Source: Burkholderia pyrrocinia
Lineage (GTDB): Bacteria > Pseudomonadota > Gammaproteobacteria > Burkholderiales > Burkholderiaceae
Reading direction: 5' to 3'
DNA: 64,000 nt
Assembly: GCF_018417535.1 (NCBI RefSeq)
Contig: NZ_CP070977.1
Span: 3,782,001-3,846,000, forward strand
A program made the translations under genes and the position numbers. Positions 2,788-21,502 of the stretch are shown piece by piece. Within the stretch, counting starts at the first letter, position 1, and every line of letters starts with the position of its first letter. The notes beneath the pieces were generated by a model that saw nothing but the letters and a program-made list of their open reading frames with translations, was not told where the DNA came from and did no database searches.

Positions 2788-2816
2788 TTGACAGCGCGTA
2801 TCGCGTATCCGATGAT
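2788..2816 (+). promoter_or_regulatory. Promoter of the polyol (smo-like) operon
   Basis: A perfect -35 TTGACA (2788-2793) is followed after 17 nt by a GATGAT -10 (2811-2816, 4 of 6 matches). Transcription would start near 2823, about 80 nt before the dehydrogenase start. The -10 is the left edge of the operator at 2811-2841, which suits repression or co-activation. Confidence 0.55.
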
Positions 2817-2841
2817 TCGATCAACAACAGAGCAATTGATC
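2811..2841 (+). promoter_or_regulatory. Polyol operator, copy 1 (12-7-12 imperfect palindrome)
   Basis: Half-sites GATGATTCGATC (2811-2822) and GAGCAATTGATC (2830-2841) are separated by 7 nt. The same layout and 22 of 31 bases recur in front of dalD on the opposite strand (18770-18740), also 17 nt after a TTGAC -35. A shared regulator, probably the SorC-type protein at 14654-15610, is inferred. Confidence 0.6.
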
Positions 2842-2902
2842 GGTCAGCGAGCGTTAGCTCACATCGTGACCGTCGTGCAGCAGAACGAACCGGAGACAAC
2901 CA

Positions 2903-3679
2903 GTGAGACTGGAAGACAAGGTCGCGATCCTGACTGGCGCCGCAAGCGGCATCGGCGAGGCGGTCGCGCAACGCTATCTGGACGAGGGCGCGCGCTGCGT
3001 GCTCGTCGACGTGAAGCCGGCAGGCGGCTCGCTCGCGCGGCTCATCGACGCGAATCCCGGCCGCGCGGTGGCCGTCACCGCCGACGTCACGCGCCGCGAC
3101 GACATCGAGCGGATCGTCGCCACCGCGGTCGAGCGCTTCGGCGGCGTCGACATCCTGTTCAACAACGCGGCGCTGTTCGACATGCGCCCGATCCTCGACG
3201 AATCGTGGGACGTGTTCGACCGGCTGTTCGCGGTCAACGTGAAAGGGCTGTTCTTCCTGATGCAGGCCGTCGCGCAGCGGATGGTCGAGCAGGGGCGCGG
3301 CGGCAAGATCGTCAACATGTCGTCGCAGGCCGGCCGGCGCGGCGAGGCACTCGTTTCGCACTACTGCGCGACCAAGGCCGCGGTGATCAGCTACACGCAG
3401 TCGGCCGCGCTCGCGCTCGCGCCGCACCGGATCAACGTGAACGGCATTGCGCCGGGCGTCGTCGACACGCCGATGTGGGAGCAGGTCGACGCGCTGTTCG
3501 CGCGCTACGAGAACCGGCCGCTCGGCGAGAAGAAGCGGCTCGTCGGTGAAGCCGTGCCGCTCGGCCGCATGGGCGTGCCGGGCGACCTGACGGGCGCCGC
3601 GCTGTTCCTCGCGTCGGCCGATGCCGACTACATCACCGCCCAGACGCTGAACGTCGACGGCGGCAACTGGATGAGCTGA
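2903..3679 (+). CDS. SDR-family polyol dehydrogenase (sorbitol/galactitol 2-dehydrogenase-like)
   Basis: This cytoplasmic NAD-dependent dehydrogenase should oxidise a hexitol to a ketohexose. The 258-residue classical SDR has the cofactor loop TGAASGIG at 11-18, Asp36 after the second strand (NAD preference), NNAA at 87-90 and the catalytic Ser140, Tyr154 and Lys158. It starts at GTG 2903, 6 nt after a GGAGAC ribosome site. It resembles SmoS/L-iditol 2-dehydrogenase. As the first gene before a sugar kinase and a PF08013 enzyme, it could convert galactitol to tagatose or sorbitol to fructose; sequence alone does not decide which. Confidence 0.85.
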   Translation: MRLEDKVAILTGAASGIGEAVAQRYLDEGARCVLVDVKPAGGSLARLIDANPGRAVAVTADVTRRDDIERIVATAVERFGGVDILFNNAALFDMRPILDESWDVFDRLFAVNVKGLFFLMQAVAQRMVEQGRGGKIVNMSSQAGRRGEALVSHYCATKAAVISYTQSAALALAPHRINVNGIAPGVVDTPMWEQVDALFARYENRPLGEKKRLVGEAVPLGRMGVPGDLTGAALFLASADADYITAQTLNVDGGNWMS

Positions 3680-3775
3680 CATGGCGCCGCTCGCACGCGC
3701 AACCTGCCGGCCGGCCTGCGACGACGCGGCATCGCCGCACGCCGCGGCCGCCGTCGAACGAGGAGGGCACGCCTG

Positions 3776-4732
3776 ATGGCCGCGATCGTCGTCGCCGGCG
3801 AGCTGCTCGCCGAATTCGTCGCCGCCGAGCGCGGCCAGGGTTTCGACACGCCGGGCCTGTTCGCCGGGCCGTTCCCGAGCGGCGCGCCCGCGATCTTTGC
3901 CGATCAGGCCGCGCGGCTCGGCGCGCGCGTCGCGTATGCGGGCTGCGTCGGTCGCGACGCGTTCGGCGACGCGATCGTCGCGCGGCTCGAACGCGACGGC
4001 GTCGATGTCGCGCGCATCCGCCGCGTCGCGCGCCCGACCGGCACCGCGTTCGTCGCGTATCGCGACGACGGCTCGCGCAGCTTCGTCTTCAGTCTCTCCA
4101 CCAGCGCGGCCGCGTGCGTCGATGCCTCCGACGTCGACACGGCCATGTTCGACGGCTGCCGTTATTTCCATGTGATGGGTTCGTCGCTGACGAGCGAATC
4201 GGCGATCGCGGCGGTCCAGCGCGGCGTGATCGAGGCCGCGCGCGCCGGCGCGAAGGTGTCGTTCGATCCGAACGTGCGCCCGGAGATGCTGAGCTTCCGC
4301 CCGATGCGCGCGGCGCTCGACGAGATGCTCGCCGCGTGCCACCTGTTCCTGCCGAGCGAGGCCGACCTGCCGTTCTTCTGCGGGCCGCAGCCGGCCGAGC
4401 GCGCGATCGCGGGCCTGCTCGCGACGCATCCGCTGCTCGAGCGTGTCGTGCTGAAGCGCGGCTCGGCAGGCAGCGTCGCGTTCGACCGCGCGAGCCGTGT
4501 CGACGCGCCGGCTTTTCAGGTCGACGAAATCGACCCGACCGGCGCCGGCGACTGCTTCGGCGGCACGCTGGTCGCAAGCCTCGTCGCGGGCGTGCCGATC
4601 GAGGTCGCGCTGCGCCGTGCGAACGCGGCCGGCGCGATCGCGGTCACGCGGCGCGGCCCGATGGAAGGCAACAGCAGCGTGGCCGAGATCGACCGTTTCC
4701 TGACCGAACGAGGTGTCGCATGTCCGGCCTGA
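3776..4732 (+). CDS. PfkB-family sugar kinase (candidate D-tagatose kinase)
   Basis: This cytoplasmic ATP-dependent kinase should phosphorylate the ketohexose made by the upstream dehydrogenase. The 318-residue ribokinase-fold protein has a substrate-side SFDPNVRPE segment at 162-170 and the C-terminal PfkB signature DPTGAGDCF at 253-261, whose second Asp is the catalytic base. The general family includes 2-keto-3-deoxygluconate and fructokinases. Its 13-nt overlap with the PF08013 gene argues for a joint reaction sequence, and a PF00294 kinase paired with a PF08013 protein is known to be D-tagatose kinase in Agrobacterium tumefaciens C58. A 96-nt gap separates it from the dehydrogenase. Confidence 0.82.
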   Translation: MAAIVVAGELLAEFVAAERGQGFDTPGLFAGPFPSGAPAIFADQAARLGARVAYAGCVGRDAFGDAIVARLERDGVDVARIRRVARPTGTAFVAYRDDGSRSFVFSLSTSAAACVDASDVDTAMFDGCRYFHVMGSSLTSESAIAAVQRGVIEAARAGAKVSFDPNVRPEMLSFRPMRAALDEMLAACHLFLPSEADLPFFCGPQPAERAIAGLLATHPLLERVVLKRGSAGSVAFDRASRVDAPAFQVDEIDPTGAGDCFGGTLVASLVAGVPIEVALRRANAAGAIAVTRRGPMEGNSSVAEIDRFLTERGVACPA

Positions 4733-6081
4733 CGACCGTCGCGGAACGCTCGCGCACCGCGCACGCGGACGCCGTGCTGCGGATGATCTTCGATGCGAAC
4801 CGCGCGGACGCGCAGCGCGGCATCTATTCGATCTGCAGCGCGCACCGGCTCGTGCTGGAGGCCGCGTGCGAAGCCGCGCGCGCGGACGGCTCGCCGCTCC
4901 TGATCGAGGCGACCTGCAACCAGGTGAACCATCTCGGCGGCTATACGGGCATGACGCCCGCCGATTTCCGTCGCGACGTCGACGCGATCGCCGCGCGCTG
5001 CGGGCTCGCGCCGTCGGCGCTCGTGCTCGGCGGCGACCATCTCGGCCCGAACCCGTGGCGGCACCGCCGCGCGGCCGACGCGATGCGCGAGGCCGGCGCG
5101 ATGGTCGCCGCGTATGTCGAAGCCGGTTTCGAAAAGATCCACCTCGATGCGAGCATGGCGTGCGCGGACGATCCGGCGCGGCTCGACGACCGCACGATCG
5201 CCGCGCGCGCGGCCGAACTCTGCCGCGTGGCGGAAGACGCGGCGGCGCGCGCCGGTGTCGCGCCCGTCTACGTGATCGGCACCGAGGTGCCGACCCCGGG
5301 CGGCGAAGTCAGCGGCAATCCGGGCGATGCGGGCGACACGGCGATCGCGCAGATCGCGGTCACGCGCAGCGACAGCATCGCCGCGACGCTCGACGCGCAC
5401 CGCAGCGCGTTCGCGGCGGCCGGGCTCGACGATGCATGGACGCGCGTCGTCGCGATCGTCGCGCAGCCGGGCGTCGACTTCGACGATCGCCACGTGCTCG
5501 ACTACGACAGCGCGAAGGCCGCGTCGCTCGGCGCGAGTATCCTGCAGACACCGCGCCTCGTGTTCGAGGCGCATTCGACCGATTACCAGACCGAGGGTGC
5601 GCTTGCCGCGCTCGTGCGCGACCACTTCGCGGTGCTGAAGGTCGGCCCCGCGCTGACGTTCGCGCTGCGCGAGGCGCTGTTCGCGCTGACATTCATCGAG
5701 GATGCGCTGATCGACGACGTCGCGCAGCGATCGCGGTTGCGCGACGTCGTCGATGCCGCGATGCGCGCGCAGCCCGAGCACTGGGCACCGTACTACCGCG
5801 GCGACGAAACCGAGCAGCGGCTCGCGCGCCAGTTCAGCTACAGCGACCGCATTCGCTACTACTGGCTGCAGCCGGCCGTTGCGGCCGCGGTCGAGCAACT
5901 GTTCGGCAACCTCGCGCGGCAGCCGGTGCCCGAGACGCTCGTCGCGCAGTGGCTGCCGGATGTCTACGCGGCGTGCCGCGCGGGCGGGCTCGCGAAGGAG
6001 CCGCGCGCGTGGGTGCGCCACCGGATACGCGACGTGATCGCGCACTATGCGCGCGCGTGCGGAATGCAGCGGCCGGCTTGA
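4720..6081 (+). CDS. GatZ/KbaZ-family (PF08013) protein, likely D-tagatose-6-phosphate 4-epimerase
   Basis: The 453-residue protein is a full-length member of the family long annotated as the non-catalytic subunit of tagatose-bisphosphate aldolase. Visible family stretches include GIYSICSAH near the N terminus, LIEATCNQVNHLGGYTGMTP, GGDHLGPNPW, YVIGTEVPTPGG and LKVGPALTFALREALF. No catalytic aldolase partner (GatY/KbaY) is encoded anywhere in the window. Members of this family in A. tumefaciens epimerise D-tagatose 6-phosphate to D-fructose 6-phosphate, so this role is inferred here. The ATG at 4720 overlaps the kinase gene by 13 nt. Confidence 0.85.
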   Translation: MSGLTTVAERSRTAHADAVLRMIFDANRADAQRGIYSICSAHRLVLEAACEAARADGSPLLIEATCNQVNHLGGYTGMTPADFRRDVDAIAARCGLAPSALVLGGDHLGPNPWRHRRAADAMREAGAMVAAYVEAGFEKIHLDASMACADDPARLDDRTIAARAAELCRVAEDAAARAGVAPVYVIGTEVPTPGGEVSGNPGDAGDTAIAQIAVTRSDSIAATLDAHRSAFAAAGLDDAWTRVVAIVAQPGVDFDDRHVLDYDSAKAASLGASILQTPRLVFEAHSTDYQTEGALAALVRDHFAVLKVGPALTFALREALFALTFIEDALIDDVAQRSRLRDVVDAAMRAQPEHWAPYYRGDETEQRLARQFSYSDRIRYYWLQPAVAAAVEQLFGNLARQPVPETLVAQWLPDVYAACRAGGLAKEPRAWVRHRIRDVIAHYARACGMQRPA

Positions 6082-6138
6082 CGGGCCGCGAAGGAAACGC
6101 AGGACCGACGACACTTCGAACAACACAGGAGACATGCC

Positions 6139-7464
6139 ATGCAACGAAAGATGCTCGACGCCGCCGCACGCTGCTTCGCCGGAGCCGCGCTCGCGACGGC
6201 CGCCTGCGCCGCGTCCGCGGGCACGCTGACGATCGCGACGCTGAACAACCCCGACATGATCGAGCTGAAGAAGCTGTCGCCGGCGTTCGAGAAGGCGAAC
6301 CCCGACATCAAGCTGAACTGGGTGATCCTCGAGGAAAACGTGCTGCGCCAGCGCGCGACGACCGACATCACGACCGGCAGCGGCCAGTTCGACGTGATGG
6401 CGATCGGCACCTACGAGACGCCGCAGTGGGGCAAGCGCGGCTGGCTCGCGCCGATCACGGGCCTGCCAGCCGACTACGACCTCAACGACATCGTGAAGAC
6501 CGCGCGCGACAGCCTGTCGTACAACGGCCAGCTCTATGCGCTGCCGTTCTACGTCGAAAGCTCGATGACGTTCTACCGCAAGGACCTGTTCGCGGCGAAG
6601 GGGCTGAAGATGCCCGACCAGCCGACCTACGACCAGATCGCCGAGTTCGCGGACAAGCTCACCGACAAGTCGAAGGGCACCTACGGGATCTGCCTGCGCG
6701 GCAAGGCCGGCTGGGGCGAGAACATGGCGTTCGTGTCGACGGTCGTGAACACGTTCGGCGGGCGCTGGTTCGACGAGAACTGGAACGCGCAGCTCACGTC
6801 GCCCGAATGGAAGAAGGCGATCACGTTCTACGTGAACCTGCTGAAGAAGGACGGCCCGCCGGGAGCGAGCTCGAACGGCTTCAACGAGAACCTGACGCTG
6901 ACCGCGTCGGGCAAGTGCGCGATGTGGATCGACGCGACGGTCGCGGCCGGGATGCTCTATAACAAGCAGCAGTCGCAGGTCGCCGACAAGATCGGCTTCG
7001 CGCCCGCGCCGGTCGCCGTCACGCCGAAGGGCTCGCACTGGCTGTGGGCGTGGGCGCTGGCCGTGCCGAAAACGTCGAAGCAGCAGGACGCCGCGCGCAA
7101 GTTCATCGCGTGGGCGACGTCGAAGCAGTACATCGAGATGGCCGGCAAGGACGAGGGCTGGGCGTCGGTGCCGCCGGGCACGCGCACGTCGACCTATCAG
7201 CGTCCCGAGTACAAGGCTGCCGCGCCGTTCTCGGACTTCGTGCTGAAGGCGATCGAGACGGCCGACCCGAACGACCCGTCGCTGAAGAAGGTGCCGTACA
7301 CGGGCGTGCAGTACGTCGGGATTCCTGAATTCCAGTCGTTCGGCACGGTGGTCGGCCAGTCGATCGCAGGTGCGGTTGCCGGCCAGATGACGGTCGACCA
7401 GGCGCTCGCCGCCGGGCAGGCCGCCGCCGACCGCGCGGTACGGCAGGCCGGCTACAAGAAGTAA
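6139..7464 (+). CDS. Polyol ABC transporter periplasmic binding protein (SmoE-like)
   Basis: This extracellular solute-binding protein of the type 1 (MalE-like) family captures the polyol in the periplasm. The 441-residue precursor has a signal peptide of about 27 residues ending ACAASAG. The mature protein starts TLTIATLNNPDM, and the aromatic stretch GSHWLWAWALAVPKTSK lies near residue 300. Its order before two MalF/MalG-type permeases and a MalK-type ATPase matches the sorbitol/mannitol SmoEFGK systems. A strong hairpin just after its stop could keep its mRNA more abundant than the permease mRNA. Ligand choice (sorbitol, mannitol, galactitol or arabinitol) cannot be read from sequence. Confidence 0.88.
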   Translation: MQRKMLDAAARCFAGAALATAACAASAGTLTIATLNNPDMIELKKLSPAFEKANPDIKLNWVILEENVLRQRATTDITTGSGQFDVMAIGTYETPQWGKRGWLAPITGLPADYDLNDIVKTARDSLSYNGQLYALPFYVESSMTFYRKDLFAAKGLKMPDQPTYDQIAEFADKLTDKSKGTYGICLRGKAGWGENMAFVSTVVNTFGGRWFDENWNAQLTSPEWKKAITFYVNLLKKDGPPGASSNGFNENLTLTASGKCAMWIDATVAAGMLYNKQQSQVADKIGFAPAPVAVTPKGSHWLWAWALAVPKTSKQQDAARKFIAWATSKQYIEMAGKDEGWASVPPGTRTSTYQRPEYKAAAPFSDFVLKAIETADPNDPSLKKVPYTGVQYVGIPEFQSFGTVVGQSIAGAVAGQMTVDQALAAGQAAADRAVRQAGYKK

Positions 7465-7470
7465 CGCGGC

Positions 7471-7502
7471 CCCGCACCGTGCGCCGACGCGTGCGGTGCG
7501 GG
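7471..7502 (+). promoter_or_regulatory. Intercistronic hairpin after the binding-protein gene
   Basis: CCCGCACCG (7471-7479) pairs perfectly with CGGTGCGGG (7494-7502), 7 nt after the binding-protein stop and about 60 nt before the first permease gene. No U-run follows, so it is more likely an mRNA-stabilising or attenuating element, as in the malE-malF gap, than a full terminator. Confidence 0.6.
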
Positions 7503-7564
7503 CGCCCAAGCCGAAAGGCGGGCAGGCCGTTCGCGCCCGCGCATCAACCGGAGGGACCCTGATC

Positions 7565-8512
7565 ATGCGTCACCTGCGTCTTCCCCTGAGCCACGCGCCG
7601 TCGGTCGGCGACGCGTCGTCGCCGCCGGGCGCGCCGCGCCGCGCGCGCGGCGGCGCGAGCTGGCTCGTGTCGCCGTCCGTCGCGGTGCTGCTGCTGTGGA
7701 TGTCGATCCCGCTCGCGATGACGATCTGGTATTCGTTCTCGCGCTACAACCTGCTGAACCCGGATGTGAAGGGTTTCGCGGGGCTCGACAACTACCGTTT
7801 CCTAGCAACCGATCCGTCGTTCCTGCCCGCGATCTGGCACACGCTCGTGCTGATCGGCGCGGTACTCGCGATCACGGTGATCGGCGGCGTGCTGATGTCC
7901 GTGCTGTTCGATCGCAAGTTCTATGGGCAGGGCATCGCGCGGCTGCTCGCGATCGCGCCGTTCTTCGTGATGCCGACGGTATCCGCGCTGATCTGGAAGA
8001 ACATGATCCTGCACCCGGTGTACGGGCTCGTCGCGAATGCGATGCGCGCGCTCGGGATGACGCCGATCGACTGGTTCGCCGATTACCCGCTCACCGCGGT
8101 GATCATGATCGTTGCGTGGCAATGGCTGCCGTTCGCGTTCCTGATCCTGTTCACCGCGATCCAGTCGCTCGACCAGGAACAGAAGGAAGCCGCGCGCATC
8201 GACGGCGCGGGCCCGATCGCGATGTTCTTCTACATCACGCTGCCGCACCTGAAGCGCGCGATCGCCGTGGTCGTGATGATGGAGACGATTTTCCTGCTGT
8301 CGATCTTCGCGGAGATCTACACGACGACCGGCGGCGGCCCGGGCGACGCGACGACCAACCTGTCGTACCTGATCTACGCGCTCGGCCTGCAGCAGTTCGA
8401 CGTCGGCCTCGCGTCCGCCGGCGGCATCATCGCCGTCGTGGTCGCGAACGTCGTGTCGTTCTTCCTCGTGCGGATGCTCGCGCGCAACCTGAAGGGAGAG
8501 TACGAGAAATGA
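7565..8512 (+). CDS. Polyol ABC transporter permease 1 (SmoF/MalF type)
   Basis: This is one of the two inner-membrane channel subunits of the importer. The 315-residue protein has six hydrophobic segments and the cytoplasmic EAA loop motif EAARIDGAGP near residue 215, through which it contacts the ATPase. I chose the ATG at 7565 (MRHLRLPLSH) because a GGAGG ribosome site lies just upstream. Its stop overlaps the start of the second permease by 4 nt (ATGA), which is typical of coupled translation of equal amounts. Confidence 0.92.
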   Translation: MRHLRLPLSHAPSVGDASSPPGAPRRARGGASWLVSPSVAVLLLWMSIPLAMTIWYSFSRYNLLNPDVKGFAGLDNYRFLATDPSFLPAIWHTLVLIGAVLAITVIGGVLMSVLFDRKFYGQGIARLLAIAPFFVMPTVSALIWKNMILHPVYGLVANAMRALGMTPIDWFADYPLTAVIMIVAWQWLPFAFLILFTAIQSLDQEQKEAARIDGAGPIAMFFYITLPHLKRAIAVVVMMETIFLLSIFAEIYTTTGGGPGDATTNLSYLIYALGLQQFDVGLASAGGIIAVVVANVVSFFLVRMLARNLKGEYEK

Positions 8513-9360
8513 GCGATCTGACCTTCGAAGGCCGGCGCGTGCCGGCCGTGTTCGACCTCGCGCGGCGCGCGCTGCCCGGCGCGCTCGCGTGGCTGATCGC
8601 GCTGCTGCTGTTCTTCCCGATCTTCTGGATGGCGATCACCGCGTTCAAGACCGAGCAGCAGGCGTATGCATCGTCGCTGTTCTTCATGCCGACGCTCGAC
8701 AGCTTCCGCGAGGTGTTCGCGCGCAGCAACTACTTCTCGTTCGCGTGGAATTCGGTGCTGATCTCGGCGGGCGTCACGGTGATCTCGCTGCTGTTCGCGG
8801 TGCCGGCCGCCTATGCGATGGCGTTCTTCCCGAACCACCGCACGCAGAAGGTGCTGCTGTGGATGCTGTCGACGAAGATGATGCCGTCGGTCGGCGTGCT
8901 CGTGCCGATCTACCTGCTGTGGAAGAACGCGGGGCTGCTCGACACGGTGTCGGGCCTCGTGATCGTCTACACGCTGATCAACCTGCCGATCGCGGTGTGG
9001 ATGACCTTCACGTACTTCAACGAGATTCCGAAGGATATCCTGGAAGCCGGGCGCATCGACGGTGCATCGACGTGGCAGGAGATCGTCTACCTGCTGATGC
9101 CGATGGCGCTGCCCGGGCTTGCGTCGACCGCGCTGCTGCTGGTGATCCTGTCGTGGAACGAGGCGTTCTGGAGCATCAACCTGTCGAGCTCGAACGCGGC
9201 GCCGCTGACCGTGTTCATCGCGTCGTACTCGAGCCCCGAGGGGCTGTTCTGGGCGAAGCTGTCCGCCGCTTCGCTGCTCGCGGTCGCGCCGATCCTGATC
9301 GTCGGCTGGCTGTCGCAGAAGCAGCTCGTGCGCGGGCTCACGTTCGGGGCGGTCAAGTGA
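8509..9360 (+). CDS. Polyol ABC transporter permease 2 (SmoG/MalG type)
   Basis: This is the second inner-membrane subunit. The 283-residue protein has six predicted membrane segments and an EAA-loop LEAGRIDGASTWQ in its C-terminal half. It starts at ATG 8509, which overlaps the previous stop, and is followed directly by the HAD gene with another 4-nt overlap (GTGA). Together with the upstream permease it would form the heterodimeric channel. Confidence 0.92.
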   Translation: MSDLTFEGRRVPAVFDLARRALPGALAWLIALLLFFPIFWMAITAFKTEQQAYASSLFFMPTLDSFREVFARSNYFSFAWNSVLISAGVTVISLLFAVPAAYAMAFFPNHRTQKVLLWMLSTKMMPSVGVLVPIYLLWKNAGLLDTVSGLVIVYTLINLPIAVWMTFTYFNEIPKDILEAGRIDGASTWQEIVYLLMPMALPGLASTALLLVILSWNEAFWSINLSSSNAAPLTVFIASYSSPEGLFWAKLSAASLLAVAPILIVGWLSQKQLVRGLTFGAVK

Positions 9361-10055
9361 GCGCGGCCGGCCAGGGTGCGAACGTGCTGATCTGCGATTG
9401 CGACGGCGTGCTGATCGACAGCGAGGCCGTCGCCGCTGACGTGATCGTGCGCGAGCTCGATGCGCGCTGGCCGGGCGTCGATGCACGGCCGGCCGTGATG
9501 CCGCTGCTCGGACTGCGCATCGAACGCGTGCTGGCAGGCGCGGCCGACGCCGTCGGCCGCACGTTGTCGGCGGACGACGTCGATGCGATCCGCCGCGCGG
9601 TCGAGGCGGCGGCCGTCAATGCGCCGATGGTCGACGGCATCGACGCGGCGCTCGGCGCGATTCGGTTGACGACGGCCTGCGCGAGCAACAGCTACCGCGC
9701 CTACGTCGAGGCGGCGCTCGCGCGCACGGGCCTCGCGCGCTTCTTCGGCGACCGGCTGTTCTGCGCGGATGCCGTCGCGCGGCCGAAGCCGGCGCCGGAC
9801 GTGTATCTCGCGGCCGCGCGCACGCTTGGGGTGGCGCCCGCGCAGTGCCTGGTCGTCGAGGACAGCGTGACCGGCATCACCGCGGCGGCCGCAGCCGGCA
9901 TGACCGTGCTCGGCTTCGTCGGCGGCGGGCATGCGTCGGCCGCGCAGATCGACGCGCTGCGCGGCATCGGCGCGCGTCACGTATTCGACGACATGCACGA
10001 GCTGCCCGGTTACGTCGCGCGCTGGCAGGCGACGGGCGCGGTGCTGCCGAACTAG
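9357..10055 (+). CDS. HAD-superfamily hydrolase (beta-PGM-like) inside the polyol transporter operon
   Basis: This cytoplasmic phosphatase or phosphomutase-like protein has 232 residues. HAD motif I is DCDGV (residues 14-18, nucleophile Asp14), motif II lies around TTACASNSY, the motif III lysine is in ARPKPAPDVY, and motif IV is VVEDSVTG. The GTG start at 9357 overlaps the permease stop by 4 nt. Its place between the permease and ATPase genes suggests it removes phosphate from a sugar- or polyol-phosphate that builds up during catabolism, but the substrate is unknown. Confidence 0.85.
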   Translation: MSAAGQGANVLICDCDGVLIDSEAVAADVIVRELDARWPGVDARPAVMPLLGLRIERVLAGAADAVGRTLSADDVDAIRRAVEAAAVNAPMVDGIDAALGAIRLTTACASNSYRAYVEAALARTGLARFFGDRLFCADAVARPKPAPDVYLAAARTLGVAPAQCLVVEDSVTGITAAAAAGMTVLGFVGGGHASAAQIDALRGIGARHVFDDMHELPGYVARWQATGAVLPN

Positions 10056-10110
10056 CAACGATTGCGCGCCGCGTGCCACGCGGCGCATCACGAACGAACG
10101 GAGACAGATC

Positions 10111-11220
<1,110 letters not shown>

Positions 11221-11233
11221 CGGCCGCGATCGG

Positions 11234-12118
11234 TCAGAGGCGCAGGTTTGCAGCCATGAAGTCGACGAACGCGCGCAGCTTCGGCGTCGGATGGCGGCCT
11301 GACGGCCACAACACGTAGATCGGCGTGCAACTCGCGACGTGCTCGTCGAGCACCGCGCACAGCGTGCCGTCGTCGAGCGAATCGCGTACGAAGAACTCGG
11401 GCAGGCACGCGATGCCGAGCCCGCGCAGCGTGAAGCACAGGCGCGCTTCCGCGTTGTTGCTGACCATCGATACGGGCACCTCGGGCAGCGTGCCCGTGCG
11501 CGGTACGCGCAGCGGCCAGGTTTCGAGCTTGCCGCTGCTCGGAAAGCGGTAGTGCAGGCAGCGGTGCAGCGCGAGATCGGCCGGGGTGCGCGGCGTGCCA
11601 TGCCGGGCGAGGTAGTCGGGCGACGCGACGAGGTGCTGGCGGAAATGGCGGAGCAGCCGCGACGACAGGCGTGAATCCGTCGGCTGGCCGGTGCGCAGCA
11701 CCGCGTCGAATCCTTCTTCGACGACGTCGACGAGCCGGTCGCTGAAATCGATATCGAGTTCGATTTCCGGATACGCGGCCATGAAATCGGCGAGCACCGG
11801 CAGCAGCAGCGTGCCGATCGTCGGCAGGCTCACGCGCAAACGCCCGCGCGGCGCTTCGGCGCTGTGCGTCAGTTCCTGCTCGGCCGCGTCGATCTCGGCG
11901 ATCACGCGCCGGCAGCGCTCGAGAAAACGCGTGCCTTCGGCCGTCAGCGTGATGCTGCGCGTGCTGCGGTGAAACAGCCGCACGTTCAGGCGCGCCTCGA
12001 GCCGCGCGATGCGCTTGCCGATTGCCGATGCCGACAGCCCGAGCGCGCGGCCGGCCGCGACGAAGCTGCGCGTTTCCGCGACCTGGACGAACACGACGAA
12101 CCCGCCGAGATTTTCCAT
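11234..12118 (-). CDS. LysR-family transcriptional regulator
   Basis: The 294-residue protein has an N-terminal winged helix-turn-helix (roughly residues 1-60, including SFVAAGRALGLSASAIGKRIARLE) and a C-terminal effector-binding domain. It belongs to the large LTTR group close to the CrgA/DmlR type. It is transcribed away from the serine hydrolase/MFS pair, and the 114-nt gap contains repeated GTCCG half-sites, so that pair is its most likely target. A role in polyol control is possible but less supported. The effector is unknown. Confidence 0.9.
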   Translation of the reverse strand: MENLGGFVVFVQVAETRSFVAAGRALGLSASAIGKRIARLEARLNVRLFHRSTRSITLTAEGTRFLERCRRVIAEIDAAEQELTHSAEAPRGRLRVSLPTIGTLLLPVLADFMAAYPEIELDIDFSDRLVDVVEEGFDAVLRTGQPTDSRLSSRLLRHFRQHLVASPDYLARHGTPRTPADLALHRCLHYRFPSSGKLETWPLRVPRTGTLPEVPVSMVSNNAEARLCFTLRGLGIACLPEFFVRDSLDDGTLCAVLDEHVASCTPIYVLWPSGRHPTPKLRAFVDFMAANLRL

Positions 12119-14653: not shown

Positions 14654-15610
14654 TCAGTCGGCCTTCGCGTCGAGCGCGGCGCGCGCGCAGGTTTCGTCGG
14701 TGACGAGCCCCGACACCCAGCCGCCGCGCAGCGCGGCGATCACCGCGTCGCGTTTCTTTGGGCCGCCCGCGAACGCGATCGTCGGGCGTTTCGGCGGCGC
14801 GGCGAGCGACACGCTCGTCACGCGCGCGCTGGTCGACACGTCGATCAGCTTGCCGTGCGCGTCGATCGGCATGCCGAGCAGCTCGGCCACCGCGCCGAGT
14901 GCGGTCATTTCGTCGCGCTCCTGTTCGGTGATGAAGCCGTCTTCGTAGAGCGGGCAGTGCGGGCCGGTGTTGCCGATCCCGACGAACGCGACGTCGGCCT
15001 TGCCCGACAGCGCCTCGACGATCCGGTACAGCCGGTGGTTGCACCACTGCGCGCGCTCGGCGGGGCTGTCGGCGAACAATGGCGCGGGCAGCAGGAAGTG
15101 CTTGCTGCCGGTCTTCTCGGAGATGTACTGCGCGACGTCGTAGCGGTTCGACGAGCCGTCGGCCGCGATCGCGCCGACCATCGACACGAGCCGGTGCTGC
15201 GGGCGGTCGATCTGCGCGATCTGCGCGACGGCGGCCTTCAGCGTCCGGCCGCTGCTGACGGCGATCACCATCGGCCGCGTCTCGCCCAGGTAGCGCTCCA
15301 TCACCTGCGCGCCGGCGACCGCGAGCTTGCGGTCGATTGCTTCGGGCGCATCGGCATCGACGGGCACGACTTCGCACATCGCGAGGCCGTAGCGCTTCGA
15401 CAGCTGCGCGCCGAGATCGAGACAGTCGGCGAGCTGGTGGTCGACGCGCACGCGGATCAGGTTCTTCTCGACCGCGAACGCGACGAGGCGCTGCGCGACC
15501 GGGCGCGACACCTGCAGTTTTTCGGCGATTTCGTTCTGCGTGTCGCCCGCGACGTAGTAGAGCCACGCGGCACGCGTGGCGAGATCGAGTTTTTCTGAGG
15601 ACTTGGACAC
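14654..15610 (-). CDS. SorC/DeoR-type sugar-binding transcriptional regulator
   Basis: The 318-residue protein has an N-terminal helix-turn-helix around residues 23-45 (TQNEIAEKLQVSRPVAQRLV) and a C-terminal sugar-phosphate-binding domain of the SorC family, with SSGRTLKAAVAQI and the FVGIGNTGPHCPLY region. I chose the GTG at 15610 (then SKSSEKLDL), which gives the usual family length; an in-frame ATG at 15661 is also possible, and neither has a strong ribosome site. It is the last gene of dalD-xylB-sorC and the best candidate to bind the twin operators at 2811-2841 and 18740-18770. Confidence 0.88.
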   Translation of the reverse strand: MSKSSEKLDLATRAAWLYYVAGDTQNEIAEKLQVSRPVAQRLVAFAVEKNLIRVRVDHQLADCLDLGAQLSKRYGLAMCEVVPVDADAPEAIDRKLAVAGAQVMERYLGETRPMVIAVSSGRTLKAAVAQIAQIDRPQHRLVSMVGAIAADGSSNRYDVAQYISEKTGSKHFLLPAPLFADSPAERAQWCNHRLYRIVEALSGKADVAFVGIGNTGPHCPLYEDGFITEQERDEMTALGAVAELLGMPIDAHGKLIDVSTSARVTSVSLAAPPKRPTIAFAGGPKKRDAVIAALRGGWVSGLVTDETCARAALDAKAD

Positions 15611-15719: not shown

Positions 15720-17201
<1,482 letters not shown>

Positions 17202-17305: not shown

Positions 17306-18700
17306 TCAACGCGGCGCGAGCCATGCGTCGACGCGTGCGAGTGCGGCGCGCAGCGCCTCGAGCAGCGCGGCGTTGCCGGCGAGCGAGCCCCACAGCGGGC
17401 GGCTCGCGCACAGCGCGACGACCGGATCGTCCGCTTCGACGATCGCCCGCGCGGCGCTTTCGTCCATCACGCCGTCCTGGTACGCATACGGCAGCGTGCC
17501 GCGTGCCCAGCGTTCGAGAAAGCGCAGGAACAAGGCGGGCAGCACGGCGGTGGCGACCGGCGCGGCGCCGCGCGCGAACGATTCGACGAGCGTCGGCGCG
17601 ATGAAGCCGGGGATCTTCGAGAAGCCGTCGGCCGCGACGCGCTGGTTCGTGTCGAGCACGTACGGATTGCCGAACCGTTCGAGCACGACGTCGCGGTAGC
17701 GCGCGAGATCGAGCGGGCTCGGGGTCAGGCACGGGATCACGTCCTGCGTCACGTAGTCGTGCGCGAAGCGGCGGATCGCCGCGTCGTGCGTGCCTTCGTG
17801 AATGTAGGTGTAGCCCGCGAGCGTACCGGCCCACGCGATGCAGCTATGCGTCGCGTTGAGGATGCGGATCTTCGCTTCCTCATACGGGTGCACGTCGTCG
17901 ACGAGCTCCGCGCCAGCCAATTCCCAGCGCGGCCGGCCGGCCGCGAAGCGGTCCTCGATCACCCACTGGATGAACGATTCGCCCATCACCGGGCATGCGT
18001 CGTCGATGCCGGTGGCCGCCAGCACGCGTTCGCGCACGTCGGCGGTCGGGCGCGGCGTGATGCGGTCGACCATCGCGCTCGGCGTGGCGACGTTCGCGTC
18101 GAACCACGCGAGCAGGTCGGCTGCGCCGCGCCGTTCGAGGAATTCGCGCATCCCCGCGCGAAAGCGCGCGCCGTTGTTGCGCAGGTTGTCGCAGCTCTGC
18201 AGCGTGAGCGGGCCCGCGCCGCGCTGCATGCGTTCGGCGAGCAGCGCCGCGAGCGCGCCGTACAGCGTCGTGCGCGCGCCCTGCAGGTCGGCCGCGAGAT
18301 CGGCATTCGCGATGTCGAGCCGGTTGTGTTCGTCGAGGTAGTAGCCGCCTTCGGTCACCGTGAACGACACGATCCGGCAGGCCGGGTCGGCGCCGGCGTC
18401 GATCAGCGCGGCGAGATCGATCGACCAGGGCAGCACGCGCGTGATCGCGCGGATCGTCTCGTATGCGCGCTCGCCTTGCGGCGTGACGGTTTCGAGCGTG
18501 TATTCGCCGTGCTGCGCGGCGAGCGCGTCCATCGTCGCGCGCATGTCGTCGCGGATGTTGCCGATGGTCAGCGACCAGCGTTCGTCGGCCGGCACGGCCG
18601 CGTTCACGCGATGCAGATACCACGCCTGGTGCGCGCGGTGAAACGAACCCGCGCCGATGTGCAGCAGCACGGGCGCGCGGGCGGAGGACGATTCGCTCAT
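17306..18700 (-). CDS. dalD: D-arabinitol 4-dehydrogenase (mannitol dehydrogenase family)
   Basis: This polyol-specific long-chain dehydrogenase should oxidise D-arabinitol to D-xylulose with NAD. The 464-residue protein opens with [20 protein letters not shown], which closely resembles Klebsiella DalD, and has [12 protein letters not shown], the central VDRITPRP and the catalytic-lysine region [14 protein letters not shown] chose the ATG at 18700 ([10 protein letters not shown]), with GGAGAC 5 nt upstream, over the earlier in-frame ATG. A mannitol 2-dehydrogenase function is the main alternative, but pairing with xylB favours arabinitol. It is first in dalD-xylB-sorC. Confidence 0.88.
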
Positions 18701-18739: not shown

Positions 18740-18770
18740 GATCATTTGCTCGTCATGTGAGCGAATGATC
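18740..18770 (-). promoter_or_regulatory. Polyol operator, copy 2, upstream of dalD
   Basis: On the minus strand, half-sites GATCATTCGCTC and GAGCAAATGATC are separated by 7 nt and match as an inverted repeat at 11 of 12 positions. Its centre lies about 55 nt upstream of the dalD ATG. It matches the operator at 2811-2841 in sequence, spacing and position relative to the -35. Confidence 0.65.
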
Positions 18771-18793
18771 GTATCCGGCCGAACGAAAGTCAA
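18765..18793 (-). promoter_or_regulatory. Promoter of the dalD-xylB-sorC operon
   Basis: On the minus strand TTGACT (18793-18788) is followed after exactly 17 nt by GATCAT (18770-18765). The -10 overlaps the first operator half-site, just as in the other polyol promoter. Confidence 0.5.
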
Positions 18794-18883: not shown

Positions 18884-19795
18884 TCAGCGCCCTTCGCGCG
18901 TGAGCGCGACGAGTTCGTCGAGCAGCTTGCCGGCCGGCCCCGGCAGGATCCCGTGGCGGCGCCGGAACGCGGTGAGCGTGCGCACCGCGACGACCTCGCG
19001 CACGGGCAGCGTGTCGATCGTGCCGGCGGCCTGCTCGGCGCCGTACATCGGCTCGGCCATCCAGCTCAGGAACCCGGCATGCGCGACGAGGCTCTTCAGC
19101 GTCGTGACCGAGCGCGTCTCGACCGCGATGTCGGGCAGCGCGAGCCCGTGCGCGTCGAAGGTCGCGCGCATATGGTCGAACGGCGCGGTGCCGCGCGGCG
19201 GAATTGCCCAGCGCGCGTGCAGTGTGTCGGCGAGCGTCGGCGCGCGGCCGAGCGCGCGCAACGGATGGTGCGGCGCCGCAACGATATGGCTGCGATCTTC
19301 CCAGCGGCACTCGGGAATCGCGACGATCTCGTCGGTGTCGGGCCCGTGCGCGGACAGCGCGAGATCGATCTCGTGCTTGTTCAGTCCTTCGGCGAGGCGG
19401 TCCCACACGCCTTCGAGGATCTCGACGCGCAGGTTCGGCCAGCGGTCGAGCACGCGGCCGACCGCGATCGGCAGCACGAGGCTCGCGATGCTGCCCACCG
19501 CGCCGACCTTGATCGTGCCCTTCGCGAACCCGCGCATTGCGTCGAGCTCCTCGCGCGCGTGCTCGGCCTCGTGCTGCAGCAGCGTCGCATGCGGCAGCAG
19601 CGCGTCGCCGAACGCGGTGAGCTGCACGCCCTTCGAATGGCGCTCGAACAGCGGCGCGCCGACCTGGTCCTCGAGCCGCTTCAGGATCCGGCTCAGCGCC
19701 GGCTGCGTCACGTGCAGCGCGTCGGCCGCGCGGCCGAGGCTGCCGCACGCGACGATCGTCGTGAAGGCGCGCAATTGTCGGAGATCGAAAGTCAT
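18884..19795 (-). CDS. LysR-family regulator divergent from benzoylformate decarboxylase
   Basis: The 303-residue protein starts MTFDLRQLRAFTTIVACGSL with a clear helix-turn-helix (LGRAADALHVTQPALSRILKRLE, about residues 20-42) and a C-terminal effector domain. Its start lies 99 nt from the divergent mdlC start, and an interrupted palindrome sits between them. It therefore probably activates the decarboxylase operon in response to mandelate, benzoylformate or a related aromatic acid; this is inferred from position only. Confidence 0.92.
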   Translation of the reverse strand: MTFDLRQLRAFTTIVACGSLGRAADALHVTQPALSRILKRLEDQVGAPLFERHSKGVQLTAFGDALLPHATLLQHEAEHAREELDAMRGFAKGTIKVGAVGSIASLVLPIAVGRVLDRWPNLRVEILEGVWDRLAEGLNKHEIDLALSAHGPDTDEIVAIPECRWEDRSHIVAAPHHPLRALGRAPTLADTLHARWAIPPRGTAPFDHMRATFDAHGLALPDIAVETRSVTTLKSLVAHAGFLSWMAEPMYGAEQAAGTIDTLPVREVVAVRTLTAFRRRHGILPGPAGKLLDELVALTREGR

Positions 19796-19894: not shown

Positions 19895-21502
19895 ATGTCC
19901 GGCCATCCGCCCCCATCCGCCGCATCGATCACCGTTCGCGATGCGGTCATCGACCTGCTTCGCCAGTTCGGCATCGACCGCGTGTTCGGCAATCCCGGTT
20001 CGACCGAACTGCCGATGTTCCGCGACTTTCCCGCCGATTTCCGCTACGTGCTCGGCTTGCACGAGGCCGTCGTGGTCGGGATGGCCGACGGCCATGCGCA
20101 GGCCACCGGCAATGCGGCGGTCGTCAACCTGCATTCGGCGGCGGGCGTCGGCAACGCGATGGGCAATCTCTTTACCGCGTTCAAGAATCGCACGCCGCTG
20201 ATCGTCACCGCGGGCCAGCAGGCGCGCGCGATCTTGCCGTTCGACCCGTTCCTCGGCGCAACGCAGGCCGCCGAGCTGCCGAAGCCGTACGTGAAATGGA
20301 GCATCGAGCCCGCACGTGCGCAGGACGTGCCGGCCGCAATCGCGCGTGCGTACCGCATCGCGATGCAGGAGCCGCGCGGCCCCGTGTTCGTATCGATCCC
20401 GGTCGACGACTGGGACCATCCGGCCGAACTGCTGCCGCGGCGCGACGTCAGCAGCGTCGTGCGGCCCGATCCCGACGCGCTCGCGCGGCTCGGCGATGCG
20501 CTCGACGCCGCGCGGCGTCCCGCGTTCGTGGTCGGCGCGGCCGTCGATCGCGCGGGTGCGTGGGACGATGTCGTGCGGCTTGCCGAGCGGCACCGTGCGC
20601 GCGTGTACGTCGCGCCGATGTCGGGGCGCTGCAGCTTCCCCGAGGACCATCCGCTGTTCGCCGGCTTCCTGCCCGCGATCCGCGAGAAGATCGTCGCGCG
20701 GCTCGACGGGCACGACCTCGTGTTCGCGTTCGGCGCGCCCGCGTTCACCTATCACATCGAAGGCTTCGGCCCGCACGTGCCGCCGGGTGCGACGCTCGTG
20801 CAGCTCGTCGACGATCCGGGCGTCGCCGCGTGGACGCCGGCGGGCGATGCGGTCGTCGGCAACCTGCGGCTCGCCGCGCGCGACCTGCTGGCGCGGCCGG
20901 CACCGCCCGAGCGGCCGATGCCTGCGCCGCGCCCGCCGTCCGCGCGCGTCGACGCCCCGGCCGCCGGCGAGCGCATGTCGGTCGCGTTCGCGCTGCAGAC
21001 GCTCGCCGACGTGCGCGACGCGCACGACATCGTCGTCGAGGAAGCGCCGAGCGCGCGGCCGATGATGCAGGAACACCTGCCGTTCACACTCAGCGGCACG
21101 TTCTACACGATGGACAGCGGCGGGCTCGGCTACGGGATGCCGGCTGCGGTCGGCGTCGCGCTCGCGCAGCCGGGCCGGCGCGTGATCGGGCTGATCGGCG
21201 ACGGGTCGAGCCTGTACTCGATCCAGGCACTGTGGAGCGCCGCGCAGTTGAAGTTGCCGATCACGTTCGTGATCCTGAACAACCGGCGCTACGCGGCGCT
21301 GCAGGACTTCGCGCCCGTGTTCGGCTTCGGCCCCGGCGATCCCGTGCAGGGCACCGATCTGCCCGACCTGGATTTCGTCGCGCTTGCCGAAGGGATGGGT
21401 TGCCGCGGCGTGCGGGTCGCCGATGCGGCGCACCTGCGCGACACGCTGACCGACGCGCTGCGTGCCGCGACGCCGGTCGTCGTCGAAGTCGAGATTGCCT
21501 GA
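19895..21502 (+). CDS. mdlC: Benzoylformate decarboxylase
   Basis: This thiamine-diphosphate enzyme converts benzoylformate to benzaldehyde and CO2 in the mandelate pathway. The 535-residue protein carries residues equivalent to the Pseudomonas putida active site: Ser36 in GNPGSTEL, Glu57 in GLHEAVV, His80 in NLHSAAGVGNAMG and His287 in FTYHIEG. The ThDP-Mg motif runs from GDGSS (435) to LNN (461-463). The ATG at 19895 follows a GAGGAGA ribosome site. It is the first gene of a plus-strand run with an aldehyde dehydrogenase, 29 nt downstream. Confidence 0.92.
   Translation: MSGHPPPSAASITVRDAVIDLLRQFGIDRVFGNPGSTELPMFRDFPADFRYVLGLHEAVVVGMADGHAQATGNAAVVNLHSAAGVGNAMGNLFTAFKNRTPLIVTAGQQARAILPFDPFLGATQAAELPKPYVKWSIEPARAQDVPAAIARAYRIAMQEPRGPVFVSIPVDDWDHPAELLPRRDVSSVVRPDPDALARLGDALDAARRPAFVVGAAVDRAGAWDDVVRLAERHRARVYVAPMSGRCSFPEDHPLFAGFLPAIREKIVARLDGHDLVFAFGAPAFTYHIEGFGPHVPPGATLVQLVDDPGVAAWTPAGDAVVGNLRLAARDLLARPAPPERPMPAPRPPSARVDAPAAGERMSVAFALQTLADVRDAHDIVVEEAPSARPMMQEHLPFTLSGTFYTMDSGGLGYGMPAAVGVALAQPGRRVIGLIGDGSSLYSIQALWSAAQLKLPITFVILNNRRYAALQDFAPVFGFGPGDPVQGTDLPDLDFVALAEGMGCRGVRVADAAHLRDTLTDALRAATPVVVEVEIA

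Follow-up and report, generated by a model that had tools for sequence, protein, structure and literature searches.

Genes at the locus

The window, a 64-kb stretch of the Burkholderia pyrrocinia genome, carries two polyol operons that we refer to as A and B. Operon A runs from 2903 to 11220 on the plus strand and operon B from 18700 to 14654 on the minus strand, and they are thus convergent, not divergently placed as the original prediction had it.

Operon A begins with an SDR gene (2903..3679, plus strand) for a SmoS-like L-iditol 2-dehydrogenase / sorbitol (galactitol) dehydrogenase, which scores 480 bits against NCBIfam NF005472 (cut-off 338) and has the GEAVA and DLTGA blocks that mark the lineage 1 sorbitol dehydrogenases, mainly of Burkholderiaceae (PMC3458964). 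The genes that follow, all on the plus strand, are for a PfkB-family kinase (3776..4732; PF00294), with tagatose kinase as the nearest model at a score below its cut-off (NF049991, 332 bits against 420); a GatZ/KbaZ-like protein (4720..6081; PF08013 605 bits, TIGR02810 639 bits with cut-off 569); an ABC transporter solute-binding protein (6139..7464; PF01547 206 bits), whose substrate we infer from the operon to be a polyol; two ABC permeases (7565..9360, being 7565-8512 and 8509-9360, with PF00528 in both); a HAD-family phosphatase (9384..10055; PF00702); and, as the last gene, a MalK-type ABC ATPase (10111..11220; PF00005, OB_MalK). The kinase gene at 3776 and the GatZ-like gene at 4720 were not found in the sister-genus loci (L065-L078 and L209-L265), which suggests a later gain in Burkholderia, or a loss in the sister genera, of a tagatose-type branch.

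Operon B consists, on the minus strand, of dalD for D-arabinitol 4-dehydrogenase (17306..18700; NCBIfam NF043014 749 bits, cut-off 600), xylB for xylulokinase (15720..17201; TIGR01312 556 bits, cut-off 380) and a regulator gene of the SorC/DeoR subfamily (14654..15610), and it has no transporter genes. There are two other local regulator genes, LysR1 (11234-12118) and LysR2 (18884-19795, minus strand).

Clusters with the content of operon A (dehydrogenase, ABC genes, HAD gene and sometimes kinase and tagatose-bisphosphate aldolase) have already been described as the SDR196C clusters of Burkholderiaceae; the part of that account drawn on here mentions no operator and no dalD operon (PMC3458964). 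Upstream of operon A, at 1-2565 on the minus strand, are metal ABC transporter genes (ATP-binding and solute-binding, by eye from the list of open reading frames), and a neighbourhood of metal ABC transporter genes with a ferric uptake regulator is on record for Burkholderiaceae (PMC3458964). Beyond dalD, LysR2 is divergent from a thiamine-diphosphate enzyme gene (19895-21502, plus strand; benzoylformate-decarboxylase-like by eye), which is followed by an aldehyde-dehydrogenase-like gene. LysR2 is present in 16 of 80 loci from named relatives (the best 80 of 526) and in none of L209-L265, and with the thiamine-diphosphate enzyme gene it is a separate system that lies beside dalD in part of Burkholderia.

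Promoters and putative operators

Promoter A, upstream of the SDR gene, has the -35 hexamer TTGACA (2788..2793, plus strand), then 17 nt, then GATGATTCGATC (2811..2822), 7 nt and GAGCAATTGATC (2830..2841). Promoter B, on the minus strand upstream of the dalD start at 18700, has TTGACT (18788..18793), 17 nt, GATCATTCGCTC (18770-18759), 7 nt and GAGCAAATGATC (18751-18740), the whole operator being 18740..18770. Hexamers and spacings are as given in the original prediction, and a letter comparison bears out its statement that the two 31-base operators have 22 bases in common. It also took the first 12-mer as the -10. The spacing is right for this predicted -10, with GATNAT after 17 nt matching TATAAT at 4 of 6 positions.

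The 12-mers had been read as half-sites. However each is a quasi-palindrome in its own right, and we treat them as subsites, of which subsite 1 at A overlaps the predicted -10. The ideal form is GAGCAATTGCTC, and the 12-bp subsites recur every 19 bp. By coordinate arithmetic the outer GA/TC triplets are spaced 9, 10, 9, 10 and 9 bp apart, which is roughly one helical turn. Promoter A has a third subsite, GAGCGTTAGCTC (2849..2860, plus strand), in the same 19-bp register and 7 bases after subsite 2, that was missed earlier and is present at the transporter promoter only, operator B being without it.

With 21 fixed positions and up to 3 mismatches the motif occurs at just these two places in the window, and the same pattern gave 0 matches in 100 shuffles of the window. 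In the whole 8.54-Mb, three-contig genome it is again found only at these two places, and a reversed-pattern control gave 0 matches there. A random occurrence across the genome, which would have counted against the original prediction, is thereby excluded, and chance origin of the motif is ruled out by the shuffles, by its uniqueness in the genome and by its conservation in the genus. The feature is real and conserved, and it is almost certainly an operator pair.

Conservation of the motif and of its build

Within the genus 63 of 65 genomes match the motif, and the two that do not (G016 and G040) also lack the regulator; a further genome that is 82% complete (G057) has one motif match and no regulator hit. 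The matches listed cover 48 of these genomes, and each of the 48 has its two places on a single contig, separated by some 10-28 kb. The matches listed for these 48 genomes include 4 others, in G011, G031, G035 and G045, all at 3 mismatches and compatible with chance, and we have rejected the idea of another target elsewhere in the genus.

Across the family the motif (at most 2 mismatches) is in 186 of 398 genomes and in 6 of 25 genera, the reversed-pattern control giving 0 in every row for the 398 genomes. The regulator is in 201 of the 398 at E<=1e-60, and in a survey of the class at the same threshold in 4 of 369 genomes, our own included. Motif and regulator occur together in 184 of the family genomes, the motif alone in 2, the regulator alone in 17 and neither in 195. 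The two motif-only cases are G310, a reduced genome of 3.9 Mb with a broken transporter gene, and G381, in which the regulator gene is cut at a contig end. The 17 regulator-only genomes are in g15 (3), g17 (1, 70% complete), g21 (6) and g24 (7).

As the regulator is encoded in the same locus, its co-occurrence with the motif is partly mere linkage. Nor does joint absence identify the binder, since six near-complete genomes (99-100%) without the regulator, G016, G040, G143, G200, G344 and G183, are also without the transporter gene (E<=1e-60), and we have dropped co-absence as a proof of binding. In two more, G220 and G265, the transporter gene is in pieces.

The original prediction expected the motif mainly before polyol genes. 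In the named relatives (Burkholderia, Paraburkholderia, Caballeronia and Trinickia; best 80 of 526 loci) this is the case, a site preceding 58 of 58 SDR genes and 74 of 74 dalD genes whose start lies inside the locus, counts that exclude an SDR paralogue and the genes (3 SDR, 1 dalD) that are cut off where the locus stops. Put in terms of loci, the site is absent from 4 of 62 with an SDR hit (the three cut genes and the paralogue, at 36% identity) and from 1 of 75 with a dalD hit (the cut gene).

For the build of the operators we collected 104 non-redundant A sites and 105 non-redundant B sites. To be collected a site had to have TTGAC[AT] and to score well at subsites 1 and 2, and the invariance of TTGAC among them is a collection condition and no result; subsite 3 was not required. 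The mean conservation, which this filter raises, is 1.83 bits per column for subsite 1 and 1.72 for subsite 2 at A, and 1.85 and 1.79 for the two subsites at B. The 12-mers have on average 3.0-4.9 of 6 pairs complementary, as against 1.5-1.7 when shuffled, and the ideal forms GAGCAATTGCTC and GAGCGATCGCTC are both found outright among the sites. The clearest case of the subsite form is in L072 and L073 (g25), where operator A has two perfect palindromes, GAGCAATTGCTC and GAGCGATCGCTC.

The regulator and rearranged loci in relatives

The protein encoded third in operon B has the features expected of a SorC-family regulator. It has a C-terminal PF04198 effector domain (181 bits, gathering score 27) and the N-terminal homeodomain-like helix-turn-helix of the SorC/DeoR subfamily, and residues 18-70 match the DNA-binding domain of DeoR (7bhy) with E 5.9e-8, or 6e-12 with a profile. 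It also matches DeoR 8r7y, LsrR 4go1 and SorC 2w48. LsrR or DeoR proper can be ruled out as its identity, as the scores against the respective equivalogs are below cut-off (NF011947, 128 of 486 bits; NF053881, 120 of 420 bits) and indicate family kin only. Of ten aligned regulators, the seven whose genera have the motif in full all carry SRPVAQRLVAFA as their recognition-helix stretch, and it is altered in those of g15, g24 and g21, whose operators are altered too.

In some relatives the locus is rearranged, and the regulator gene is the only one of the regulator genes of our locus to accompany the motif through the rearrangements. In the sister genera g10, g13, g20 and g25 (16 loci) the regulator and site B are present in 16 of 16 and site A in 12 of 16; in L067, L071, L082 and L083 site A is further along the same contig. 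In g16 all the genes form a single operon, SDR-transporter-dalD-xylB-SorC, which is headed by one operator of two subsites. The g24 genomes have the regulator gene divergent from a transporter-dalD-xylB operon, with the operator in the gap between, and in g15 the regulator gene and an operon of this kind are convergent.

We trained a weight matrix on 33 distinct subsite pairs, taken from the window together with L065-L084 and L186-L265, and scored all positions of each locus. The best place was before the transporter/SDR operon in all 3 g15, all 4 g24 and all 3 g16 loci and in two of the three loci from distant families, the SorC proteins of these last two being 44% and 39% identical; the second of them (39%) again has TTGACA, 17 nt and the 12-7-12 build. 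In L151 and L162 the gene nearest to the best site is the divergent SorC gene, the site being in the common gap between SorC and transporter genes. TTGAC[AT] is 17 nt upstream of the site in the ten family loci (18 nt in g15). For none of the 3 g21 loci did the matrix place a site before the transporter, and it fails in L267, a locus with no transporter gene. Each of the 3 g21 loci (SorC 37-39%) has, upstream of the transporter, a single diverged 12-7-12 pair with CAYTTG cores. This pair was found by eye and checked for its spacing, and is thus weaker evidence; the other 20 spacings gave 3 matches in 60 cells. The site before the transporter operon thus persists, often diverged, whether the regulator gene is divergent, convergent or inside the operon.

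The g24 loci L151-L153 and L162 have in addition a second, weaker 12-7-12 pair (GTGCTTTTGCCC / GAGCATTTGCTT in L151) about 50 bp towards the SorC gene, which is perhaps the regulator's own operator.

Proposed mechanism and its alternatives

The suggestion that both operons answer to one regulator, most likely the SorC-type protein, is the reading best supported by these comparisons, on the strength of the co-occurrence in 184 of 398 genomes and the tracking through rearrangements. It is very probable that this protein is the ligand of the operator pair, and probable, by analogy, that it acts by repression. We suggest that it is a SmoC-like tetrameric repressor of the SorC/DeoR subfamily that binds both promoters, regulates its own synthesis and co-controls both operons, and put the probability of this at about 0.85.

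Each 12-bp quasi-palindrome would seat one pair of helix-turn-helix domains, and the spacing of the GA/TC triplets would bring the contacts to roughly the same side of the helix. One tetramer would span two adjoining subsites, and promoter A would offer it three. Once bound, the repressor would mask the predicted -10 together with the beginning of the transcribed region, as far as about +19 at B and +38 at A, and its occupancy would keep polymerase off both promoters. A polyol, or a sugar phosphate derived from one, may bind the PF04198 domain and release the repressor, turning on together operon A, with its transporter and sorbitol-type dehydrogenase, and operon B, with dalD, xylB and the repressor itself. 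Operon B, having no transporter of its own, would then rely on that of operon A. The likely sense of the shared operator is that it makes a transporter available for D-arabinitol, given that SmoEFGK carries D-arabitol and operon B is without transporter genes.

The sign of this control is the less certain part. EryD is a member of the SorC family. In Sinorhizobium it is both activator and repressor (quoted in PMC10433430), and because of this the SorC-type protein might bind both sites but mainly activate, or switch sign with its ligand. We think this unlikely, as the subsites overlap the predicted -10 or follow it, positions from which a bound protein would block polymerase and not recruit it, the -35 is near consensus, and loss of smoC gives constitutive expression (PMC10433430).

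It is also improbable, and somewhat more so, that a different regulator binds the motif, be it one encoded elsewhere or one of the local LysR proteins. SorC-family paralogues are present in some genomes, and a regulator encoded at a distance would escape our search of frames near the sites in five loci. That search covered 15 frames in L266, L151, L157, L149 and L268 and found one other regulator, of ROK type and near the SorC gene in L268; there was none among the nearby frames of the first four. For LysR1 and LysR2 the case is clearer, as they are present in 0 of 57 loci in L209-L265 (50 of Paraburkholderia, Caballeronia or Trinickia and 7 of Burkholderia sp.) and in 0 of 16 sister-genus loci, where the motif is present nonetheless; in two g24 loci there is just a 27% LysR match about 9 kb away. 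On their absence from the sister-genus loci we reject them as the regulators.

The repeats could in principle form an RNA hairpin, as a leader or attenuator, subsites 1 and 2 being partly complementary with a mean of 8.5 of 12 pairs at A and 9.9 of 12 at B. However palindromic subsites yield such complementarity anyway, subsite 1, if it is the -10, would precede the point where transcription starts, and two of the twelve pairs form in just 6% and 3% of the 104 A sites although both sides are conserved, and we reject this reading on the pairing table. A recent duplication of a promoter with no shared control would account for the CGCCTTGAC-17-subsite layout common to the two promoters, but is very hard to credit when in both copies and across genera the subsites have 1.5-1.85 bits per column (1 and 2 filtered, 3 not) and the 7-nt spacers 0.2-0.9.

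The SorC-type repressor thus remains our preferred reading, and it would explain how a D-arabinitol operon that lacks a transporter may obtain its substrate. For Burkholderia, Paraburkholderia, Caballeronia and Trinickia it would also give a defined operator of a polyol regulator of SorC/SmoC type, with which this regulon could be annotated from sequence alone.

The third subsite

A third subsite with a consensus score of at least 10 of 12 is present in 96 of the 104 A sites and in none of the 105 B sites, as against a background of 0.16% of the 12-mers in the window, and at the corresponding position the B sites have 0.18 bits. The sites at the A position without it are those of g16, g24 and one distant family, and two from Paraburkholderia (L211 and L242), in which the score is 9.

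We offer, tentatively and at somewhat less than even odds, the suggestion that the three-subsite operator is a real variant of SorC-family control, which would have arisen at the operon split discussed below. A tetramer would bind either at subsites 1+2 or at subsites 2+3, or all three would be covered by a larger assembly. If so, one repressor would grade its targets, and the transporter would be repressed more tightly than dalD and the repressor gene, or with different timing. Palindromes at such regular intervals, in sets of two or three, would also be a natural series for looking at how SorC-family tetramers count subsites.

Comparison with known systems

The kind of system described here is already known. 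The best comparison is with the smo locus of Sinorhizobium meliloti (smoC, smoEFGK, smoS, mtlK), in which the DeoR-type gene smoC, a negative regulator, adjoins a similar transporter and dehydrogenase operon, with a polyol ABC transporter, a sorbitol dehydrogenase, a mannitol/D-arabitol dehydrogenase and a putative phosphatase, and in which SmoEFGK carries sorbitol, mannitol and D-arabitol (PMC10433430). In the window and its relatives, too, the regulator gene is linked to genes for a polyol ABC transporter and for dehydrogenases of the sorbitol and the mannitol/arabitol type. However the transport and dehydrogenase genes are one operon in smo (PMC10433430), whereas here they are divided between two convergent operons, and the regulator gene has dalD and xylB next to it. 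Our likening to SmoC is by gene neighbourhood, and no SmoC operator is described in the part of that account used here (PMC10433430).

DeoR and CggR of Bacillus subtilis are by sequence in the same protein family as our regulator, and are tetramers that bind two-part operators from one side of the DNA (PMC11229326). The two-part palindromic form typical of SorC-family operators is present here, as 12-bp quasi-palindromes 19 bp apart, the binding itself being predicted, and the triplet spacing of about one turn fits the one-sided docking of the DeoR and CggR tetramers (PMC11229326). The dimensions differ, as DeoR has an 18-bp left half in a 39-bp operator and CggR an operator of 45 bp, as against 12 bp with a 19-bp period here and three subsites at promoter A; the positions also differ, at -60 to -21 for DeoR and +32 to +77 for CggR, neither being as in our promoters (PMC11229326). 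The half-site spacing of DeoR, taken from the printed operator, matches neither of the possible pairings of half-sites per dimer in ours.

EryD of Ochrobactrum, the erythritol repressor, is DeoR-type and similar to SmoC, and is again a repressor of polyol genes with a short promoter operator, of 29 bp (PMC10190533). It differs in the position of its operator, which is between -35 and -10 (PMC10190533).

In the literature searched, which is without subscription papers and RegPrecise, we found neither this operator nor any SorC-family operator of three subsites described. As far as those papers show, what is new is the operator, with its 12-7-12 build and third subsite, and the proposed shared control of both operons. 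With regard to expression, dalD of Burkholderia pyrrocinia is up (log2 1.43) when the cells are given root exudate, in which sorbitol and arabitol are present (PMC10061817), which is consistent with the proposed induction and not specific to it.

Operon history

In g15, g16, g24, g21 and one distant family (with a dalD-like gene, 36-44%) dalD is in the transporter operon or directly after it. With dalD within the transporter operon of these relatives, the splitting of one operon is the simplest history, and we infer that A and B are the parts of a single operon, with the operator kept at both heads. The regulator tree requires two changes of arrangement, and places the single operon of g16 inside the split group with weak support.

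The small g10 genomes G215, G230, G255, G330 and G310 (L098-L100, L104, L107, L111, L112 and L161) have a broken regulator, xylB, dalD or transporter gene and still one motif match each, and it seems that in these reduced genomes the locus is decaying.
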